Of a stretch of DNA of 52,108 nucleotides, positions 33,470 to 46,502 are shown in pieces; position 1 is the stretch's first letter; each line of letters opens with the position of its first letter. This stretch comes from Bacteroidales bacterium (GTDB lineage Bacteria > Bacteroidota > Bacteroidia > Bacteroidales > VadinHA17), in the NCBI GenBank assembly GCA_021157415.1, contig JAGGWN010000063.1, positions 1 through 52,108 on the forward strand, given 5' to 3'. The notes beneath the pieces are model-generated. The model searched no databases. It saw only the letters and a program-made list of their open reading frames with translations, and was not told the origin of the DNA. Made by a program: the position numbers and the translations under genes.

Positions 33470-36028
33470 TTAAAAGTTTCCACTTTTCTTTTTCATTTTT
33501 TCCAGGCTGGAGACAGGCCGGATAAAAGCATCATGATAACCCATATTGTGAATTTCAGGGAGTACTTTCTTTGCTTTCGAGTATCCATGATAATTTCCAA
33601 CGGTGTACCGGACGAAATTGTCCTGGCAGGCCCAGGCACGTATGTCTTTCAACGTTTTGAAAGCGCCTTTGTACGGAGGCTTGCGCAGGGCATAGATCTG
33701 GATGGTATAATAGGGGATGTTTTCTTTGATATATTCACTTCGTCCTACGTATTTTTTCTTTTTTTCCAACGGTTTATGTAAAAGATCACTCAATGCCGGA
33801 TCATCAATAACCCGTGCCTGGTTGAAGCCCAATGCAATGAGTTTGGTAAGCAACTCGATGGCCCTGTTTTTCAGCTTGAAAGATCCCAGCGTATAATAAT
33901 ATTCTCCGTTTACCTCATCTACCTTCACATAATTCAGTTCCTCCATGTTAAAGCGGTAGAAATAATCATCGGGTAATTTTTTCTTTGTCTTAATGACCAG
34001 GATTGAGTAAGTCAGTTTCTCTTTTCCTGTAGCATATTCAGGCATGAAATATTCCGGTTTGTATTGAATAGCTGTATCGGAACGGAGCAAACGGATGTCC
34101 ACTTTTCTGGATTGTTCCTGTGTGACTGTTTTGGTCTGCTTGCCTTTTTTCAACTGAACGACTCTGATCTCGCCGATTCCTCTCAGGGTGAATCTGTTTT
34201 TGGGAATACCCAGGCTGGTGAAAAAGTTGATAACCTCTCTGGCTCTTTTTACCGACAGATTTTTGTTGTAATCTTTCGTACCCGTGGTATCGGTCATTCC
34301 GACGATCTCGAATTTCAGCGAGGGATACTCTTTCAGGAAAACCGCTATTTGTGTAAGATGTTGACGTGCTTCTTCGGAAAGATGGTATTCGTTCAGTTTG
34401 AAATATACCGACCTGATAAAAAATACATTTCCCTGGTTGGTCTGACGGGGTATCAGACGGGTTTCCACTGCGAGGAAAGAACGGGGATATTTTTCAGGGA
34501 TGGTGATGGTTTCCGACACATTCTTGTAACGGTTACTTCTGACAGCTATTTTGTAAGTGCCGGGTAAGAGTTTCGCCATATATCGTCCGGAAGAGTCGGG
34601 GACGGGTTTTGCAAAGACTTTGGTTCCGGCAGTGTCAGAAATAGTGACCGACAGGGATGGATCGGTATCCCTGGCCCCGTCCTCGAAGACCAGCGTTCCC
34701 TTTACTTCTATACGGGTTATTTTTCCGGGAGGAATAATATGTACTTTATAGATATCCCAGGTATTGACAGGACCTTCCCGGGTGATCAGAGAAACCAGTG
34801 CCGTATCACCGTTACCCAGTGGAAAATAATTCATGTTATCATCTGTGGTATTGACAGGATAGCCGAGATTGACCGGTTTGGACCAGCTCCCGGATCTTTT
34901 CTTTTTAGAATAGAATACATCAAATCCACCCATATTATAATGTCCCTGAGAGGCAAAGAACAACGTCTGTCCATCAGCGGTGATATGCGGGTTGTCTTCA
35001 AGAAGGGGGGTGTTTATTACCGGACCGAGGTTCACCGGTTCTCCCCAGCGACCGTCAGCGGTTTTTTTAGACAGGTAGATGTCCAGGCCCCCCCTGCCTC
35101 CGTTCCTGTTGCTGGTAAAATACAGGGTTTTGCCATCTGATGAAATGCAGCAGGATGATTCCCAGTATCTTGTATTGATATTCCTGCCGAGTCGTTTCAT
35201 AGGAGTCCAGACCGTATCTCTGTGATAGCTGACCCACAGGTCGGCTCTGCCCCCTTCTTCCTTGTACAGGAACAGGGTGTCTCCCGTAAAAGATAAAGCC
35301 ACGGCGCGACTGTCATCGCCGGCGTCGAGCTGTGCGGTAATATCCACGGGGTTGCTCCATCCGTTGCGTTTTTTTCTGCAGTACATAATGGCCTTGTTGC
35401 TGCCGGGCATCGCGGTGTAAACAAACACTTTCCGATTTTCAGAGACCACCGGGTTCAGATTTTTCCGGTATGCATTGATTTGATCCGTTAGTTTTTCTTT
35501 TTTTACAATCACCGGATGTTGTTCCATCTCACGGGCATGGGAGCAATTCCTGATCTGCTGCCTGACAAAATCCGTATAAAACATCTGAGGGTTATGAAAA
35601 CCGGACGTGGCCGAAAGAAATTTCTTGTAATAATATACTGCCGAATCGGTGCGGTTGAGCAGGTGATAGGCTGAACCGGTATAAAAGAGTACATCTACAG
35701 GTGCATATGTTTCCTTATAACTGTATGAATAATCAAAGGTTGTTTTTTTACTGGCTTTGATAAGCCAGGGTATGGCCTCTTTGACATAACCGTCCATATT
35801 CAGATAACAAATACCTACCTTGTATTGGTAGTTGTGGTTGTCGGGAGCAAAATTTACCAATAGCTTATACAAAGGAAGCGCTTTTTCATAATCTTCATTA
35901 TAGAGAAGTATGGATTCTGCTTCATTGAAGATGGATCGTAGCTCTTTGGAAGAAACGGTTTGTGATGCCAACGGATGAGGGAACAAGAGGAAAAAACTAA
36001 AGAAAACAAACAAGTTGTCTTTCATCAT
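33470..36028 (-). CDS. TPR/PD40/OmpA envelope protein with SPOR-like C-terminal modules
   Basis: This 852-residue protein has a signal peptide (about 1-22, ending LASQ). The domain order is TPR (about 30-150), PD40 propeller (about 190-425; TLYFTSNRNGGRGGLDIYL, GHYNMGGFDVFYS), regulatory-like beta domain (about 435-520), OmpA domain (about 540-655; GMTDTTGTKDYNKNLSVKRA) and two SPOR-like repeats (about 685-740 and 770-840; YYTLGSFKLKNRAIELLTKL, PYYTIQIYALRKPPYKGAF). It resembles the protein at 13521-15605 for its first 650 residues and then adds peptidoglycan-type SPOR modules. OmpA and SPOR both bind the cell wall, so a wall-anchored envelope scaffold is inferred. No link to T9SS is visible. 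Confidence 0.82.
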   Translation of the reverse strand: MMKDNLFVFFSFFLLFPHPLASQTVSSKELRSIFNEAESILLYNEDYEKALPLYKLLVNFAPDNHNYQYKVGICYLNMDGYVKEAIPWLIKASKKTTFDYSYSYKETYAPVDVLFYTGSAYHLLNRTDSAVYYYKKFLSATSGFHNPQMFYTDFVRQQIRNCSHAREMEQHPVIVKKEKLTDQINAYRKNLNPVVSENRKVFVYTAMPGSNKAIMYCRKKRNGWSNPVDITAQLDAGDDSRAVALSFTGDTLFLYKEEGGRADLWVSYHRDTVWTPMKRLGRNINTRYWESSCCISSDGKTLYFTSNRNGGRGGLDIYLSKKTADGRWGEPVNLGPVINTPLLEDNPHITADGQTLFFASQGHYNMGGFDVFYSKKKRSGSWSKPVNLGYPVNTTDDNMNYFPLGNGDTALVSLITREGPVNTWDIYKVHIIPPGKITRIEVKGTLVFEDGARDTDPSLSVTISDTAGTKVFAKPVPDSSGRYMAKLLPGTYKIAVRSNRYKNVSETITIPEKYPRSFLAVETRLIPRQTNQGNVFFIRSVYFKLNEYHLSEEARQHLTQIAVFLKEYPSLKFEIVGMTDTTGTKDYNKNLSVKRAREVINFFTSLGIPKNRFTLRGIGEIRVVQLKKGKQTKTVTQEQSRKVDIRLLRSDTAIQYKPEYFMPEYATGKEKLTYSILVIKTKKKLPDDYFYRFNMEELNYVKVDEVNGEYYYTLGSFKLKNRAIELLTKLIALGFNQARVIDDPALSDLLHKPLEKKKKYVGRSEYIKENIPYYTIQIYALRKPPYKGAFKTLKDIRAWACQDNFVRYTVGNYHGYSKAKKVLPEIHNMGYHDAFIRPVSSLEKMKKKSGNF

Positions 36029-36854: not shown

Positions 36855-39800
36855 CTATTCCGAAGGATTATTTTCCCTGATCATCTGCATTTTTCTTAAA
36901 AACATGTTTTTTTTGCGTTCGACGCCGGCCATAAATATGTAGGGTGGCTGATTCCCCCCTGACCGGAGTTTTCTTTTACTTTCTTTGAGGGAGGCCAGAA
37001 TCTTCATGAAATTGTTGTTGGAGGAAATAGCCTGCAACACCCCCGGTGTGTATGCAAAATAGTAGTAATTTCTTTTACTAAGTTTCAGATAAAGGTCGAA
37101 GATATCACCGCTGCGTTTTTTCTGTATTTCCAGATACCCGTTAACGGCCACATTCAATGGATGCCCGTCAATATTGCCAAGGCCGATCTTTCCAACCGAG
37201 ACATATGATCCTGTTTCATGGTTCCATTCCAGGGTAACGTCCGAAAGAAACAGCGTATGTTTCTGTTCTTTCGGAACCACAGGCAACTGACCGAACATTT
37301 TCATTTCCTGGATATCTGCTTTGGATGTTTTGGAAGAAGGTCCCAGTAAACCCAAAATTCTGTCATACCAGTCACTACGGATATCCACCGGGGTCAGACT
37401 GGTTAACGAATCAATCTCCCCTGCCATGATGTTTAAGGCTTCAGGATCAAAATAAAAATCCAGTCCGATCATGACATGTAAATTGATCTTATTACTGTCG
37501 CCAGGTGACTGAAGGATGGTGCCGGGAGTGATGATTTTTAGGCGGCCGAAACGAACACCCAGGTTCAGCATTCCTTCACCATACAGCCTGCAGTTGTTCC
37601 TGTCCAGAGAGAGATAGTTGCCTGAAACAGAAGGATCATGAACTTTTTCTTCGCTGCCTATCCGGTATTCTCCGGATTTCTTATCGTAAGACAGCACTCC
37701 CTGTGCCGAACTGATGGGCGTATCGCTATAGTTTTTCCGGGAAGATAAAAAAGCCGGATAAATATGAGTGGAGTCGTTGGTGATGAAGTGCCCGCTGTAA
37801 ATTTTCTTTTTATGAATATCCAGCATCTGCTCTTCAACAGGGATCAGTACGTTATTGGGATCGATCTCAGAAGAGAAAGCCAGAAAATGTCCCGGGATTT
37901 CCCGGCATGGATGCACTGCTTTCGCACCCCCGGTAAACCACAGATGCTCCCGGTTGGAAGAAAGTTCGACTTTCCCTGTATAGGCAAAAGCAGGACTTAG
38001 CATGAAGTGTATTTCGGGAGGGAGATCGGTCTCTGCATGTGTATGTAATGAGTTATCTACACGGATATCCGTAAAGAAGATGTTTTCGGTCTCTCCGTTT
38101 TCTTCCATATATTTATAAAGGCCTGATCCCTCAAAACTTTTTCTGGAGTATATTTTTAGTCTGGCTGAATCCAGCGTATAGGTGTTGGCTGCTACGAGCC
38201 GGGCATCTTCCAGTTCATTAAGGTATCCGTTCGGTCCGATCCGTACACTCATGCTATCGGGATAGAGCAGCGCATCTGCGACCTCTACGAATGCTGTATG
38301 AAAGGTCTTAATGTTTCCCTGAGTGAGATCGAATGTGGCAGAGTCGGAATAGAATCCGAGGGTGTCAGCAGGTGGGTACAGGGAGATAAAAGTGGGCATT
38401 TTTACCCATTTCCCGGAAATAATTGCCGGGTTATTTCCCAACAGATAAGCATCATCGGAGGTTTTGTTGTTCCTCAGGTAAATTCGTTCGTTACCAAAAT
38501 CAAACGTAAAGGCATCCAGGGAGGTGATCCACTGCATATCCGGAAATTCGATATGCAATGTATCGAAGAGGCTTTCAAATCTTGCCGTCCGGGCGGGAAC
38601 ATCAAAGTCTGATCTTGTCCGGAATGCATGCATGCGATCATTTTCTCCCGGATTTGTTCCGGACAGGACAAAATCAGAGGTATCTGCCGCAACATGTGTG
38701 TCTGTCAGAAGAAAATTACCGGAAGTCACCTCCGAACCCGGGAACAGTATGGTGCCCTGTGCAGTAAGATAATCCGGAGTGAGGATGATGTCTCCGTCAA
38801 GGTTGAACAAGGTGTCGAAAAGGGAAATGTCCGTGGATTTTTTATGGATATGAAAGGTGTTTTCTTTGGGAAGCCATTTAACCGATACATCCCGGGCTTT
38901 TACGTCGGGATACCGTGTGCCTTCGTGGGTGGCTTCGACGATAAGGTCATGGGCACCGGTGACCATAGAATCCGGGAAAAAGGAAAAATGATCCGAAAAA
39001 ACGGTGGTGGTAAGATATTTTAATTTTCCTGCACCCTGCAGTCCCTGATTACTCAGTTCCACATCGTTAAAAAATCTTCCTTTGCCGTTATACAGAGGAA
39101 TTCCCTCTTCCGGCATCTGGGAGACAAAACCCAGCGAGTTATCTGGTTGTACTTCCAGGTTCTGGGGTATCGGGGGAAAGATTTTACCACTGACAAAGTC
39201 GCCCTTAAAAATGAGATCTTTTTTATAAAGGTTATTCAATGAGTAAAGCGTGAAAGGTCTGATGATAAAATGAAAGTCTTCCCGGGTGTAGATACTGTCG
39301 TAAACTGAGGCTTTGTTGTAAAAGACAAAAGAGCTGTCAATACTTTGAAAATAAGGAAATGTATCGTAATGTTTCCGTCCTGACTTATTGGCGGGGTTAT
39401 CGATGTATAAATATCCGGTAACTACTTCCAGGGTGTTTTTTATTTTCTCGGGGACAGGATTGCCGAGATCATCCACGCTGTCTCCGTAGGCGGTGAGTCG
39501 GACCGAGTCGATCTGAAACAGGTCGATCTTGAATGTATCATAGTCAAAGAAAAAGTTTTTTCCATCCAGTACGGCCATGCCTGCCTGTATTTCCCCGTCA
39601 AAGCTGAAACACCGGTTACGGTGCATGATGATCCGGTGGTCAGCCGGATAGATAGCAACATCCTGAGAGTCGCTCAGAAAGATCGTCGGCACACCGTTGA
39701 TTGTCATATCGAAATTGTGCATGTCAATGACGGCGTTGTCAACGGGGGCCTTAGTGCGGGAGAGGAAAGACATCACATCGTAGTCTATTTTTCCGCCAAA

Positions 39801-41399
39801 AGCATCCAGATAATCATACAATTCTTTTTTTAACTTAACTTCGCCTGTTTCCGGATTATAAAAAACAAACCCTTCCACGGCCAGGTGCACAAGCAACCGG
39901 CGCACCTGGTATTCCGGTTTTTTCATCCATTTGGCCAGTTCCTCCACCGGAAATTCATCCGAATAATACCATTCGGCAAATTTCTTCAGTAAATACAAAG
40001 GGTTCATGGCATCCATTCCCTGCAATCTGTAATAAGTTTTTGCATTAAAAAAATTCGTTGACCAGAATTTCCCTGTCCCGATGGTGGTTCCCCGTAAACG
40101 GGTAAACAAGGCCCTGTTTTTTTCGGCTTTCCATACAAACCTGTTGGCCTGAATGTTCAGTTTGTGGTATGTGTCGTAATAAGGACTTTGGGTCATAGGG
40201 TCTTCGGTCTGATACAAGGACACTTCCCGGTTATTATTGTCGTAAACGAACGCTATATTGGGGTGGAAAATAGAATCCCGGTCCAGAAAAAATGAAACAT
40301 TCGTTTTACGTCCGGATACTCTGTCTTTCATAATGGCAAAAAACAGGGATCTGACTTTCACTTGTAACGTATCGTTCCGGTAAAAGCGCAAAGTGGCAGG
40401 TTTGTATATGTTTCCTGTTCCTTTAACTACTGCTCCCTGCATAGAAAAACCTCCTTCGTAATCCACGTTGGGAAAGAGGTTTTTTATTTTGAAATGCTTG
40501 ATATAAGAATCAAACTTTGGAAAAGTTGCTTTTGAGGAAGCGGAAAAATGTGTGGCTTTATCATCCAAAGTGCCCAGGATAGGTTTGCTGAAATAGACAC
40601 GGTTGACAAAAGAGACACTGTCGACATGGTAACCGTTTCTGGAAAGAACGATCTTGTAGGCCGGCAACCGGGCAAATACCGAATCTCTGGGATAACCGGC
40701 TCTCTCCCAGGTTACTTTCCCGGATTCGCCGTACCAGATCGAGTTGTAGGGATCATACTTGCCTGACGTTTCATGGATCATGATACTGTCTCCTTGAGCG
40801 TAACAGGTCAGTGTTGTTTTGCCAACCCGGATAAAAAAACCGTTTTGGAACTGAAATTGATAGGTTGTTGGTTTGACGGACCATGTTACGGCCTGGTTGT
40901 TGGCAAGATCATAGAACTTTAAAAAATTCAGAACGCCCGACAGGTATTTTCGTATATATCTCAACTGTGTGTTTTGGTTGTCAAGGAATGAGACCAATCC
41001 TTTGTCCCAATTATCAAAATAGGAATCATCCGTATTTTTGTCGGTGAGATACAAAACGGTTCCGATATAGTCCAGGAAGTAAGGTGTCTGTTTGGCACGG
41101 CGACTTTTAAGCCGGTTCAGGGTGTAAAGAATACGGGTTCTTTTTTCAGCAGTGACCGTTGCCGAGTCGGAAGAAACCATTCCGATAAACCGGGTAACCT
41201 CTTGTTTCTGTTCATCATTAAGATGACTGAGGAACATGAAGGTGCTGAAAGCACTGGCAAAACCCGTAGTGTCATCGGGGAAGGGCTTAAAGGATTGTGA
41301 CCGGCCGGGAGTGACCAGCACAAGGGTCAGCAGGATAAGACAGGGAAAGCGAAGAAAGGATGTCGGTGTTTGACCAGGTTTTGTCATCGGGATAACCAT
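36855..41399 (-). CDS. Giant exported beta-rich protein, function unknown
   Basis: This 1514-residue protein has a signal peptide (about residues 15-35, LILLTLVLVTPGRSQS) and no further clear membrane helix, so it is periplasmic or outer-membrane attached. The first 110 mature residues are helical. Most of the rest is a long succession of short beta strands with repeating hydrophobic-polar rhythm, similar in appearance to jelly-roll or beta-groove proteins such as LptA/OstA or TamB. Around residues 470-530 a helical segment (LAKWMKKPEYQVRRLLVHLA) followed by two short strands looks like a winged-helix fold. No enzyme motif is recognisable. A role in moving or assembling envelope lipids or polymers is only an inference. 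A promoter lies just upstream. Confidence 0.8.
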   Translation of the reverse strand: MVIPMTKPGQTPTSFLRFPCLILLTLVLVTPGRSQSFKPFPDDTTGFASAFSTFMFLSHLNDEQKQEVTRFIGMVSSDSATVTAEKRTRILYTLNRLKSRRAKQTPYFLDYIGTVLYLTDKNTDDSYFDNWDKGLVSFLDNQNTQLRYIRKYLSGVLNFLKFYDLANNQAVTWSVKPTTYQFQFQNGFFIRVGKTTLTCYAQGDSIMIHETSGKYDPYNSIWYGESGKVTWERAGYPRDSVFARLPAYKIVLSRNGYHVDSVSFVNRVYFSKPILGTLDDKATHFSASSKATFPKFDSYIKHFKIKNLFPNVDYEGGFSMQGAVVKGTGNIYKPATLRFYRNDTLQVKVRSLFFAIMKDRVSGRKTNVSFFLDRDSIFHPNIAFVYDNNNREVSLYQTEDPMTQSPYYDTYHKLNIQANRFVWKAEKNRALFTRLRGTTIGTGKFWSTNFFNAKTYYRLQGMDAMNPLYLLKKFAEWYYSDEFPVEELAKWMKKPEYQVRRLLVHLAVEGFVFYNPETGEVKLKKELYDYLDAFGGKIDYDVMSFLSRTKAPVDNAVIDMHNFDMTINGVPTIFLSDSQDVAIYPADHRIIMHRNRCFSFDGEIQAGMAVLDGKNFFFDYDTFKIDLFQIDSVRLTAYGDSVDDLGNPVPEKIKNTLEVVTGYLYIDNPANKSGRKHYDTFPYFQSIDSSFVFYNKASVYDSIYTREDFHFIIRPFTLYSLNNLYKKDLIFKGDFVSGKIFPPIPQNLEVQPDNSLGFVSQMPEEGIPLYNGKGRFFNDVELSNQGLQGAGKLKYLTTTVFSDHFSFFPDSMVTGAHDLIVEATHEGTRYPDVKARDVSVKWLPKENTFHIHKKSTDISLFDTLFNLDGDIILTPDYLTAQGTILFPGSEVTSGNFLLTDTHVAADTSDFVLSGTNPGENDRMHAFRTRSDFDVPARTARFESLFDTLHIEFPDMQWITSLDAFTFDFGNERIYLRNNKTSDDAYLLGNNPAIISGKWVKMPTFISLYPPADTLGFYSDSATFDLTQGNIKTFHTAFVEVADALLYPDSMSVRIGPNGYLNELEDARLVAANTYTLDSARLKIYSRKSFEGSGLYKYMEENGETENIFFTDIRVDNSLHTHAETDLPPEIHFMLSPAFAYTGKVELSSNREHLWFTGGAKAVHPCREIPGHFLAFSSEIDPNNVLIPVEEQMLDIHKKKIYSGHFITNDSTHIYPAFLSSRKNYSDTPISSAQGVLSYDKKSGEYRIGSEEKVHDPSVSGNYLSLDRNNCRLYGEGMLNLGVRFGRLKIITPGTILQSPGDSNKINLHVMIGLDFYFDPEALNIMAGEIDSLTSLTPVDIRSDWYDRILGLLGPSSKTSKADIQEMKMFGQLPVVPKEQKHTLFLSDVTLEWNHETGSYVSVGKIGLGNIDGHPLNVAVNGYLEIQKKRSGDIFDLYLKLSKRNYYYFAYTPGVLQAISSNNNFMKILASLKESKRKLRSGGNQPPYIFMAGVERKKNMFLRKMQMIRENNPSE

Positions 41400-41421
41400 T
41401 GCAATAATTCCAATATCAGGC

Positions 41422-41453
41422 TAAAGATATGAACTGTTATCCGTATTAAAAAA
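41422..41453 (-). promoter_or_regulatory. Promoter of the giant exported protein gene
   Basis: On the minus strand TTTT (41453-41450) and TATCTTTA (41429-41422) are separated by 20 nt, one base off each consensus box. The start codon follows 22 nt downstream. Confidence 0.45.
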
Positions 41454-41546: not shown

Positions 41547-42305
41547 TTAAAAAGAACGGATGATCGCATAGAAATCATCTGCTTTCAGGGATGCTCCACC
41601 GATCAGTCCTCCGTCCACATCAGGGTTGGAAAACAGTTCGCCGGCATTGGAAGGTTTGCAGCTGCCGCCGTATAAGATGGTGATGTCTTCTGCTATCTGT
41701 TTGCCGTATCGTTTGTTGACAAGACTGCGGATATAGGCATGCATTTCCTGTGCCTGTTCCGGGGTGGCAGTAACGCCGGTTCCTATGGCCCAGACTGGTT
41801 CGTAGGCGATGATAATCTTCCCGAACTCTTCTTCGGAGAGAAGAAACAAAGCGTCTGAGATTTGGGTTTTAACAACCTCAAAGTGTTGTTTGGCATTGCG
41901 TTCTTCCAGAACTTCCCCGCAGCAAAATATAGGAGTGAGATCATTTTCGAGTGCCAACTCGGTTTTTTTCTTCAGGATCGCGTCGGTTTCGCCATAATAT
42001 TGCCGGCGTTCGGAATGGCCGATGATGACATACTCAGCGCCTGTTGAACGTACCATAGCTGGTGAAACTTCGCCTGTGTAAGCTCCGGCAGCTTCGGCCG
42101 CACAGTTCTGGGCAGAGAGTTTTACTTTGCCGGTATCAATGCGTTTGGCCAACTCGGCCAGATGAATAAAAGGAGGAGCAATGATCACATCTGTGTTCTC
42201 AGGAGTGCCCTGTGATACAAGTTTATCTACAGCTTCCGCCAGTTTGATCCCTTCCTCAAGGGTCTTGTTCATTTTCCAGTTTCCGGCAACAATATTTTTT
42301 CTCAT
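41547..42305 (-). CDS. tpiA: Triose-phosphate isomerase
   Basis: This 252-residue TIM-barrel enzyme interconverts dihydroxyacetone phosphate and glyceraldehyde 3-phosphate in glycolysis. Catalytic residues are seen as the lysine in GNWKMNKT (residues 7-14), histidine in [13 protein letters not shown] (about 96) and glutamate in [12 protein letters not shown] (about 168). The phosphate loop YGGSCKPSN closes the site. It is complete and of normal length. A well-formed promoter precedes it, so although the MauE/DoxX-like gene lies just upstream on the same strand, tpiA can be transcribed alone. Confidence 0.98.
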
Positions 42306-42393: not shown

Positions 42394-43632
42394 TCATCGA
42401 TCGTCAAGCCTTCCTGGGGGCAGAACCAATCGAGCTGTAACTGCAAACAAAAGTAATCCTGAAATCAGTAAGAGGCCCAGCCGGATGTTTGAATCTTTTT
42501 GCAGAACTGTGAGCTGACGAGATAACAGGTTCCCGCTGAAAACCTCCGGATCAGGGATATCGTGGTAGTGCCATTTACCAAGGATGGTTCCTTCTTTTAT
42601 CAACAACAGGCCCGGGTTGGACCGGATAATGGTTTTGCAGGTAGTTTCATCCGTGTTACAGAACGTAAAAGAAAAACCGTTTTCAACAAGTTTGTGTGTT
42701 TCCTCCGGCCCTGAAGGAGTGAGTACATAAAACCCATATCCTTTGTCCCGGGCAAAGACAGATATGTTCCATGCTTTCTCAAGCCCGCCGACGTTGGCTT
42801 CAGACAGGTCATAGGAGATGAGCAGAAAAGTATAGCCCGGGTCCTTGAGGATCTGGTCTGTGATGTCTATCCCATCCTGCCGCAGAATACTGAAATCATG
42901 AATAGGAGGGACATATCCTTTTTTTATGAGAGTACTCTTCTGGTCAACAAATTTCCAGGTGCTGTCCTGCCAGGGGAAATTATCTGTGGAAAACTCTTTC
43001 CGGACGCCGTTCTTTTCATAAATCAACGTAGTCTGATATTTATCCTGCGGAGCACCCGGGGGAACGGTCATCTTGCCGGGGATGTGGGTCCCCGTTTTAT
43101 ACGGACGGAAATCGAACAGGGGCAGGTGACGAAAACTGTATGCAGATAATCCGGCAAACATCAGAAAATAAAAAAATAATAGTCCCCACTGAAAAAAGGA
43201 GGGATATGGTCCTGAAAGATTCTTCCTGTTCAGGAAAAGCCATAAAGCCAGTGCCAGCAGAAACAGGTTCTTGAAAAAAGTCTGCCAGTTTGTTAGAATC
43301 AGGGCATCTCCGAAACACCCACAATCTTTTACGGGATTGAACAGGGCCAGGACGAGGGTCAGAGGCGTGAAGAGGCTCATGAACAGAAGAAAACCCCAGG
43401 CTCCAATACGGGGTTTTAGGGAAAAAAGAAGGGATATGCCTATCAGAAATTCGGCTGTCGGGAAAAGGAATGCCAGTGGAAAAGCCAGGGAATGGAGAAA
43501 ATCAAGATGAAAAGCCTGAAAATAATCTTCAAACTTGATGGCTGAACCGCTCAGGTCAATACCCTTGACAAACCCTGAAAAGATAAAAACCGATCCTGCA
43601 ATGATTCTGACTATCCCTCTAATGATCTTCAT
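42394..43632 (-). CDS. MauE/DoxX-like membrane protein with thioredoxin-like C-terminal domain
   Basis: The 412-residue product begins at ATG 43632 (MKIIRGIVRI), directly in the first helix; an ATG at 43731 would add 33 polar residues. Four membrane helices (about 1-165) contain FSGFVKGIDLSGSAIKFEDYF and, in the loop, DCGCFGDAL with a CxC pair, as in MauE-type proteins that support disulfide chemistry. Residues about 200-370 resemble a thioredoxin-like fold (YTFLLISYDL, LLLIKEGTILGKWHY), but no CxxC is seen there. A last membrane helix ends the protein. Bacteroidales often carry this gene next to tpiA. The reaction is unknown. Confidence 0.78.
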   Translation of the reverse strand: MKIIRGIVRIIAGSVFIFSGFVKGIDLSGSAIKFEDYFQAFHLDFLHSLAFPLAFLFPTAEFLIGISLLFSLKPRIGAWGFLLFMSLFTPLTLVLALFNPVKDCGCFGDALILTNWQTFFKNLFLLALALWLFLNRKNLSGPYPSFFQWGLLFFYFLMFAGLSAYSFRHLPLFDFRPYKTGTHIPGKMTVPPGAPQDKYQTTLIYEKNGVRKEFSTDNFPWQDSTWKFVDQKSTLIKKGYVPPIHDFSILRQDGIDITDQILKDPGYTFLLISYDLSEANVGGLEKAWNISVFARDKGYGFYVLTPSGPEETHKLVENGFSFTFCNTDETTCKTIIRSNPGLLLIKEGTILGKWHYHDIPDPEVFSGNLLSRQLTVLQKDSNIRLGLLLISGLLLFAVTARLVLPPGRLDDR

Positions 43633-43792
43633 GGTAACTATATTTTTTTCAGAGTGAAAAATAAGTAAAAGCTGTGACGCCTGAAAAGGACTTTTATCAG
43701 TTTTTTGGAAGTGAATTACACGAATGAACACTGATTTTCATGTAATTTGGTGCCATTCGTGGAGAAAAGTAAGATTGTATTTATTTTAGGAT

Positions 43793-43823: not shown

Positions 43824-46502
43824 ATGAAAAAACTTATATTATTTCTTTTTGTGGAGGTATGGACATTTTCTTTTTCCGGATTATTTGCACAGGATCGGTC
43901 ATCACCGGACCTTTCCTCCTCTATGGTTTATCGTAATTTGGGTGCTTTTCGTGCCGGAGCCTGGGTTGGGTGCGTTGCGGCTCCGGACCATCCCGGGGAA
44001 ACAGACAGGTTTACTTTTTATGTCGGAGCGCGTAGTGGCGGGCTTTGGCGTACGATCAACAATGGAACCACTTTTTCCTGTATATCTGACACCTTCGGGA
44101 CCTCTTCGATAGGGGCAGTGGCGGTGGCGCCCTCTAATCCTGCGGTGCTTTGGGTGGGTACGGGAGATGCTTTCAATGCCAGGTCATCCTATTATGGTAA
44201 CGGGATCTGGAAATCAGAAGACAGGGGCAACACCTGGCAACACATGGGTCTTGAAGATTCACATCATATTGCCAGCATCGTCATTCATCCGCAGAATCCA
44301 AACACCGTGTGGGTGGCGGTCATGGGGCATCTCTTTTCAACAAATAGTGAACGGGGTGTATATAAAACCGAAGATGGAGGGCATACCTGGGAAAAGATAC
44401 TGTACATAGACGATGAAACCGGCTTTATTGACCTGGTCATCAATCCGGATCATCCGGATATCCTTTATGCTGCCAGTTACTGGGAAAAACGCACCCCCTG
44501 GACTTTCGTACCCGGGAGTGACAAAAGCCGCATTTATAAGACCATCGATGGGGGAAGCACCTGGCATAAACTGTCGGGAGGTTTGCCTGAAGGACCTTTG
44601 GGGCGTATCGGCCTGGCCATACACCGCGCCAACCCTGCGATCGTTTATGCCGTGATCCAGAACCTGAATACCAGGCCCGGAGCCACCGGTAACGAACCAG
44701 TAGAATTCGATGCGTTTACGGATCACTCGTTTGATAACCTGATCGGAGGAGAAGTTTACAGAACCGATGATGGAGGAAAATCCTGGTGCCGTATCAATGA
44801 TCCTGAAAAAACGGATGTAAGCGGGAAAGCAGCATACAGCTTTAATAAAATTGCTGTGGATCCTGTCGATCCCGACAAAGTGTACATCATCGGTGCGGAT
44901 ATGTACTATACCCTCGACGGAGGAAAGACCTGGCCACGCTGGGGCAGGGGCAAGGACTTATTTAGGACGAATTTTGGCGATAACCGCTGTTTCCTGATAG
45001 ATCCTCACGATCCGCGGTATATGCTGTTGGGATCCGACGGTGGCGCTTACGCTACCTGGGACGGGGGAAAGACCATGATGCATTTTGCAAACCTGCCTTT
45101 GGGCGAAATTTATAAAGTGGAAACAGACGATGCCATACCTTATAACATTTATACAGGATTGCAGGACCATGAAATATGGAAGGGTCCTTCCAATGGATGG
45201 TCAGGGAGCGTGACGCAGTCAGACTGGGTGATCGTGGGCATGTGGGACGGGATGTTCTGCAAGGTGGATCATACAGACAACCGTTGGCTTTATTTTACCA
45301 CCCAGTTCGGCAAACACCATCGCGTGGACCAGCAGACGGGAGAACGGAAGGACATTACCCCTAAAGCACCGAAAGACAAGGCTTTCTATCGTTTTACCTG
45401 GACTACTCCGCTGATTATTTCTCCTCATGATTCCCGGGTACTGTTTACCGGGGGGCAGGAATTATTGCGTTCTTCCGACCGCGGGGATCACTGGAAAGCG
45501 GTCAGTCCCGATCTGACGGACAACAACCCTGCCAGGATTGCCGGAACCGGCCATATGATGTATTGTACCATTACCACGATATCAGAATCCCCGTTGAAAA
45601 AAGGATTGATATGGGTAGGTACCGATGATGGGCATGTGTGGATGACACCTGACGATGGGAAAAGCTGGAAGGAGATGACAGCAAAACTGGAGGCTCTCGG
45701 TGTGCCTGCCGACAGATGGGTAAGTTGCGTAACAGCTTCATCCCATCATCCGGGAACGGTATATGTGGCTAAATCGGGATATCGCCGTGATGATTTTCAT
45801 GCCTACCTTGTCAGGAGTACTGATTTTGGAAAAACGTGGGAGAGTATTTCAGGAGCGCTGCCTGCCTCCCCGGTAAATGTGGTTTATGAAGATCCGGTGA
45901 ATGAAAATCTTCTGTTTGCGGGAAATGACAAAGGGGTATATGTATCCCTCCATGCAGGTGCATCCTGGCAATCCCTGCAGGGAAATATTCCTCCCGCCGT
46001 AGTGCGGGACGTAACCATCCAGTCCAGAGACCATGATCTGGTGGTAGGTACCTACGGCCGTGGTGCGTGGATTGCCGATATCAGCGCTCTGGAACAGTGG
46101 ACGGACGAAATACAGGGAAAAGATTTTTTTCTGTTTGATATTGATCCGAAACCCCGGATGAATTTCTCCCAACAGAAATGGTGGGGTAATTATTACGAAA
46201 CAGGAGATCAGCAGATCCGTGTTCCCAACGAACCCAACGGACTGGAAATCTATTACTATTTCAAAGAGAACGACCCGGAAACCCATGCGGAGATTAAGGT
46301 TTCCGATGCTACCGGGAAGGAGTTGTTCAGGAAAATAATAGTCGTTGAAAAAGGAATCCGGAAAATATACTGGGACACGCGTAATGTTTCACCTGCCGGT
46401 TATACCGTTACCCTGTCATGGCGTGGTCGGCATATGAGCAGGCAGGGGAAGGTGCTGAAGAGATGGCTGTGGCCGGTCCTCAATTATAGGAATGATGAAT
46501 GA
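43824..46502 (+). CDS. Secreted BNR/sortilin-like beta-propeller protein
   Basis: This 892-residue protein has a signal peptide (about residues 1-23, ending LFAQ). The rest is a large propeller built of repeats of BNR/VPS10 type, with Asp-box-like turns such as SEDRGNTWQHM, TEDGGHTWEKI, TIDGGSTWHKL, TDDGGKSWCRI, TLDGGKTW and TPDDGKSWKEM. Such proteins are often annotated as glycosyl hydrolases, but no catalytic residues can be assigned. No type IX C-terminal sorting domain is evident. The last 30 residues are basic and unusual (WRGRHMSRQGKVLKR), and members I know of often continue further, so the C-terminus may be altered; a repeat-rich gap follows. Confidence 0.82.
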   Translation: MKKLILFLFVEVWTFSFSGLFAQDRSSPDLSSSMVYRNLGAFRAGAWVGCVAAPDHPGETDRFTFYVGARSGGLWRTINNGTTFSCISDTFGTSSIGAVAVAPSNPAVLWVGTGDAFNARSSYYGNGIWKSEDRGNTWQHMGLEDSHHIASIVIHPQNPNTVWVAVMGHLFSTNSERGVYKTEDGGHTWEKILYIDDETGFIDLVINPDHPDILYAASYWEKRTPWTFVPGSDKSRIYKTIDGGSTWHKLSGGLPEGPLGRIGLAIHRANPAIVYAVIQNLNTRPGATGNEPVEFDAFTDHSFDNLIGGEVYRTDDGGKSWCRINDPEKTDVSGKAAYSFNKIAVDPVDPDKVYIIGADMYYTLDGGKTWPRWGRGKDLFRTNFGDNRCFLIDPHDPRYMLLGSDGGAYATWDGGKTMMHFANLPLGEIYKVETDDAIPYNIYTGLQDHEIWKGPSNGWSGSVTQSDWVIVGMWDGMFCKVDHTDNRWLYFTTQFGKHHRVDQQTGERKDITPKAPKDKAFYRFTWTTPLIISPHDSRVLFTGGQELLRSSDRGDHWKAVSPDLTDNNPARIAGTGHMMYCTITTISESPLKKGLIWVGTDDGHVWMTPDDGKSWKEMTAKLEALGVPADRWVSCVTASSHHPGTVYVAKSGYRRDDFHAYLVRSTDFGKTWESISGALPASPVNVVYEDPVNENLLFAGNDKGVYVSLHAGASWQSLQGNIPPAVVRDVTIQSRDHDLVVGTYGRGAWIADISALEQWTDEIQGKDFFLFDIDPKPRMNFSQQKWWGNYYETGDQQIRVPNEPNGLEIYYYFKENDPETHAEIKVSDATGKELFRKIIVVEKGIRKIYWDTRNVSPAGYTVTLSWRGRHMSRQGKVLKRWLWPVLNYRNDE

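Follow-up and report, generated by a model that had tools for sequence, protein, structure and literature searches.

A large predicted exported β-hairpin protein of Bacteroidota with a winged-helix-like insertion and a possible role in outer-membrane biogenesis

The DNA analysed here (the window) comprises 52,108 nucleotides of contig JAGGWN010000063.1 from the Bacteroidales bacterium assembly GCA_021157415.1. Its longest open reading frame (ORF), 1,514 codons with an ATG start on the minus strand, encodes a protein that we call P0001 (Table 1). An earlier note on this DNA, which omitted the strand, had rightly named the gene as the largest of the window and had read its product as an exported protein with an LptA/TamB-like β rhythm. 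Many stops close the plus strand over the same interval. Homologues keep open frames of about 1,500 amino acids across hundreds of genomes, and the ratio of non-synonymous to synonymous substitution rates (dN/dS) was 0.14 and 0.11 in comparison with the two closest relatives, whose proteins are 89% and 77% identical; because of both observations we regard the ORF as real and not as a chance frame. The gene is under strong purifying selection, and a search down to E 10 detected no paralogue in the same genome.

The N-terminus of P0001 consists of a hydrophobic stretch followed by the near-invariant residue Q35 (94% of 252 homologues), in agreement with the signal peptide proposed before. Q35 probably ends an AQ-type site for signal peptidase I, at which the protein would be cleaved; this type was assigned because sequence inspection found no lipobox Cys in the N-terminus. 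The signal peptide is the sole hydrophobic segment, and no other hydrophobic helix was seen in the sequence. Helical periodicity prevails over residues 1-160, and the N-terminal helical domain (residues ~36-165) had gone unmentioned so far. Between residues 154 and 1450 the hydrophobic alternation is for the most part stronger than the helical periodicity, with a helix-like exception at ~454-503, so that the long β rhythm described earlier was recovered.

Table 1. Features of the P0001 gene and its upstream flank (window coordinates; residue numbers refer to P0001)
Feature	Coordinates	Strand	Basis
Coding sequence of the predicted exported 1,514-aa protein P0001	36855..41399	-	ORF; homologues in 203/295 order genomes; dN/dS 0.11-0.14
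Signal peptide, residues 1-35, putative signal peptidase I site after Q35	41295..41399	-	sequence; Q35 in 94% of homologues
N-terminal helical domain, residues 36-165, varies between orders	40905..41294	-	helical periodicity; in most second-order homologues the alignment starts at model position 174
First β region, residues 166-462	40014..40904	-	β alternation, hairpin couplings
Duplicated module copy 1, residues 307-599, contains winged helix	39603..40481	-	self-comparison with 859-1061
Winged-helix-like insertion, residues 463-548	39756..40013	-	gap in duplication alignment; couplings (see text); weak HTH/wHTH matches
Second β region, residues 549-1450	37050..39755	-	β alternation, hairpin couplings
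β unit of ~90 residues, residues 761-851	38847..39119	-	self-comparison with 852-947
β unit of ~90 residues, residues 852-947, overlaps module copy 2	38559..38846	-	self-comparison with 761-851
Duplicated module copy 2, residues 859-1061, without winged helix	38217..38825	-	profile self-comparison
Conserved C-terminal antiparallel meander, residues 1381-1448	37056..37259	-	couplings (see text)
C-terminal helix, residues 1488-1514	36858..36938	-	helical periodicity; helix in low-confidence AlphaFold2 model
Terminator-like hairpin between tpiA and the P0001 gene	41455..41472	-	sequence
tpiA, upstream neighbour, conserved linkage (26/41 contexts)	41547..42305	-	neighbourhood comparison

A family profile was built from 252 homologous sequences and used both for self-comparison and for kinship tests. 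When it was compared with itself, residues 859-1061 matched residues 307-599 (E 5e-8) and residues 852-947 matched residues 761-851 (E 1e-6); the latter match was already found with 58 sequences (E 1e-5). Judged by these alignments, the self-comparison shows P0001 to be, in part, the apparent product of internal duplication of β modules of ~90-200 residues.

Residue couplings were obtained by mean-field direct-coupling analysis of the 252 homologues (effective number of sequences, 207). Among the top 200 pairs in the β regions, 22 had antiparallel-neighbour support, as against a mean of 6.7 and a maximum of 15 in 200 shuffles, whereas parallel-neighbour support (8 pairs) equalled the null mean of 7.8; a parallel β-solenoid was rejected on this ground. 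The strongest coupling runs were consecutive hairpins, at the C-terminus (1385-1405, 1405-1421, 1423-1436) and further upstream (1047-1066, 1068-1081, 1081-1091, 1093-1112). The results show that ~1,200 residues of antiparallel β-hairpins follow the helical domain. The couplings fit an open antiparallel meander and are compatible with a lipid groove as well as with a shell, barrel or propeller; the long-range couplings 206-280, 774-842 and 957-1060 are left unexplained by a plain meander. Long antiparallel β repeats would also be expected if P0001 were a surface-exposed, adhesin-like or shell-forming protein of the RHS/YD cocoon kind. However, neither a C-terminal sorting domain nor a lipobox was seen, no adhesin family matches well, and strong purifying selection together with conservation across orders is unlike typical, variable adhesins, so that we consider this explanation improbable.

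The most conserved part of the protein spans residues 370-680. At a mean identity of ~29%, twelve polar residues from this part are present in at least 93% of the 252 homologues: D375, S376, H379, S447, D539, D541, S547, N555, S576, N671, K672 and S673. Such residues could form a specific site if P0001 were a large enzyme or ligand-binding protein of the periplasm or the cell surface. However, Gly and Pro make up roughly half of the residues that the family conserves, and several of the polar ones lie in DS- or NKSG-type turns, a pattern that reads as structural, and neither P0001 nor 25 diverse members matched an enzyme family in Pfam or NCBIfam. An enzymatic or ligand-binding role is therefore quite unlikely in our view.

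By eye, residues ~463-548 display the succession of a helix, a helix-turn-helix (HTH) and a two-stranded wing. The alignment of residues 307-599 with 859-1061 contains one large gap at about residues 437-541, into which almost the entire segment falls; this gap shows the segment to be an insertion into one copy of the β module. Couplings were found between helix 1 and the wing (471-523, 475-523), helix 2 and helix 3 (488-502), and helix 3 and the wing (500-519). Family matches of the insertion were weak (HTH_IclR, 0.038; Sul12a, 0.0048 at best and in 4 of 25 members), as was the match of profile positions 499-547 to the IclR crystal structure 5tjj (E 0.82). Pattern, couplings and weak matches together suggest a winged helix, although no single match was convincing; the insertion that the earlier note had placed at residues 470-530 is thus supported and somewhat longer. 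What the segment has in common with the winged-helix DNA-binding domains of IclR, Sul12a and Lrs14 is the order of its elements. Unlike these, it sits inside an exported β-repeat protein, which makes cytoplasmic DNA binding implausible. A winged helix at this place would be a DNA-binding fold put to an unusual new use.

No family of Pfam, NCBIfam or PADLOC matched P0001, as expected from the earlier remark that it holds no known motif, and none gave a convincing match for the 25 diverse members. Sequence searches of the PDB (one protein, two profiles) yielded no significant match, a scan of viral contigs and a plasmid search yielded none, and no paper on the family was found in the literature searched. 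A contig search with the single P0001 sequence returned two named relatives, one Bacteroidetes and one Bacteroidales metagenome assembly. The gene was present in 35 of 40 close relatives, in 203 of 295 genomes sampled across its order and in 202 of 241 genomes of a second order centred on G205, which at a guess is Cytophagales; a profile built from both orders found the family in 14 of 394 genomes sampled across the phylum. Many of the absences in the second order fell into the reduced-genome family f179 (0.7-1.8 Mb) and the genus g47. This genus of family f26 (G115, G150, G233, G743, G750) uniformly lacks the family, which is present in its sister genera. Second-order homologues (L041, L043, L275, L308 and others) are longer, with a median of 1,669 and up to 2,022 amino acids; the difference lies mostly in a divergent N-terminal part, and the β core is conserved from about residue 175. 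P0001 belongs to a large Bacteroidota family that has never been given a name. Its very long proteins are exported and presumably periplasmic, and a genome usually has one copy. The family appears to be undescribed in the libraries and literature searched; elongated exported β-repeat proteins as a kind are already known.

Gene order was compared in 41 neighbourhoods from several families of two or more orders. In many of them tpiA, prmA or both precede the P0001 gene in the same orientation, typically at a distance of tens of bases; prmA was located immediately upstream in 25 contexts and tpiA was present in 26. Immediately downstream, 10 contexts contained plsY, which encodes the glycerol-3-phosphate acyltransferase of phospholipid synthesis, and each of the two sampled orders showed this link. 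The downstream neighbour of the P0001 gene in the window is a phosphoesterase gene on the other strand. The sequence TATCTTTAG at 41421-41429 agrees in part with the -7 box consensus of Bacteroidota; together with the terminator-like hairpin, this consensus match suggests that the P0001 gene may be transcribed separately from tpiA here.

Upstream of tpiA, positions 42394-43731 (minus strand) encode a MauE/DoxX-type membrane protein (PF07291), homologues of which were linked to tpiA and the P0001 family in 20 of the 41 contexts. Beyond it, 43824-46502 (plus strand) encodes an 892-aa, presumably exported protein that by eye appears rich in sortilin/VPS10-like propeller repeats. On the other side, 33470-36028 (minus strand) encodes an 852-aa protein with a TPR-like N-terminus (by eye), PD40 propeller repeats and an OmpA domain, arranged as reported for PG1058, a protein of type IX secretion (PMC5053529), and with a long C-terminal extension in addition. 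The likeness to the PG1058 type (TPR, propeller, CRD, OmpA) belongs to this neighbour only, since P0001 is not homologous to it.

The position of this PD40-OmpA gene, two genes away, is one of several observations that would fit P0001 as a periplasmic or outer-membrane-associated scaffold or assembly factor whose β repeats bind proteins and never lipid; it might serve outer-membrane proteins, for instance, or be an accessory to type IX secretion. Within the order sample, SprA was present in 202 of the 203 genomes that carry the P0001 gene, and 15 of the 16 SprA-less genomes lacked it (Fisher p 1e-7, a test that ignores phylogeny). In family f149, two SprA-less genomes were also devoid of the gene, whereas the third member has both. 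Moreover, winged helices commonly act as protein-protein modules. On the other hand, 77 SprA-positive genomes of the order do not carry the P0001 gene, nor does most of the phylum, and the PD40-OmpA gene is not conserved beside P0001 homologues elsewhere, where the proteins grouped with it are shorter. We regard the scaffold as a rather unlikely but serious contender. A core type IX component was rejected because of the 77 genomes. The host itself probably has type IX secretion, since its genome encodes an intact SprA (G000:C107:10326-17558). The Bacteroides control genome was devoid of SprA, and, since 15 of 16 SprA-less genomes of the order lacked the P0001 gene, Bacteroides probably lacks it as well, so that essentiality data from Bacteroides, suggested earlier as a check, would probably have no bearing on P0001.

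Kinship to the known β-groove proteins was examined with hhalign, using OstA_2, LptD_2, TamB and AsmA profiles that were each built from ~30 genomes of the same order. The best E-value of the P0001 family against any of these was 0.058 (0.17 for TamB, 0.27 for AsmA), whereas the positive controls OstA_2-LptD_2 and TamB-AsmA reached 1e-4 and 5e-5. Of the earlier LptA/TamB-like reading, the exported, very long β-repeat architecture with its insertion was retained, and the kinship to LptA, LptD or TamB/AsmA was not. The content of aromatic residues (F+Y+W) was 12.6-14.1% in the P0001 family and 12.8 and 13.9% in the OstA_2 and LptD_2 proteins of the order; aliphatic residues (I+L+V+M) accounted for 21-22% as compared with 25-29% in TamB/AsmA. 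This is weak evidence that the family is closer in composition to OstA_2/LptD_2 than to AsmA/TamB.

With the LptA/OstA-like proteins (OstA_2, PF13100; LptD_2, PF19838) P0001 shares, besides a similar aromatic and aliphatic content, β-richness and short strands, and apparently also export to the periplasm and the lack of a membrane anchor; it differs in its winged-helix-like insertion and in being three times as long as the OstA_2 proteins of the order. The TamB/AsmA β-taco proteins (PF04357, PF05170) resemble it in length (~1,500 residues), in repeated antiparallel hairpins and in the strength of β alternation, but P0001 has no N-terminal inner-membrane anchor helix in addition to its presumably cleaved signal peptide. 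Flavobacterium and Capnocytophaga are the Bacteroidota in which TamL/TamB have been examined (PMC12045153). At other loci, the host genome has two AsmA matches and a single match each to OstA_2, LptD_2 and TamB. A 'missing LptA' or 'missing TamB' was rejected for this reason, and P0001 is an addition rather than a replacement.

Tentatively, and with less than even confidence, we favour P0001 as an elongated periplasmic β-groove that carries hydrophobic cargo, most likely lipid, for outer-membrane biogenesis. The hairpins would stack into one elongated groove or rod. At ~20 residues per strand, ~1,200 β residues would give ~60 strands and, if they formed one continuous sheet, a length of ~28 nm, enough to reach across the periplasm. 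Partner proteins, rather than DNA, may dock at the winged helix and at the helical ends, and P0001 would resemble the β-groove bridges LptA and TamB in its mode of action but show no detectable relationship to either. Lipid is considered as cargo because of the plsY linkage and the resemblance of the rhythm to LptA/TamB; protein is considered because of the association with SprA. Further observations in line with a groove are the export signal, the β alternation, the antiparallel ladders and open meander, the module duplication, the OstA_2/LptD_2-like composition, the wide retention and the single copy in the genome.

Several points weigh against the groove. Besides the lack of profile similarity and the lower aliphatic content, barrels, sandwiches, RHS-like shells or propellers would show β alternation and hairpins just as well, P0001 has no membrane anchor or known partner, and linkage says little on function because most of the neighbours are housekeeping genes such as tpiA and prmA. 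AlphaFold2 models of residues 36-800 and 745-1514, computed with three close sequences (window, L031, L032), are unusable, with mean predicted local distance difference test scores of 28.3 and 29.9. Groove and protein scaffold are not really separable on present evidence; we prefer the groove because it explains why the protein is so long and built of repeats, and because its prediction is the sharper one.

P0001 is the product of a very large gene that is conserved in two Bacteroidota orders and has no name, family model or known function. If its groove were structurally unrelated to the known ones, the family would join Lpt/OstA and AsmA/TamB as a third class of bridge that crosses the periplasm by a hydrophobic groove; this class would be ancestral to several Bacteroidota orders and have a winged helix repurposed for docking or gating, an outcome that we consider unlikely. 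Lipid transit through the periplasm of Bacteroidota is largely an open matter, and a conserved giant β-repeat protein would be a natural candidate for it.

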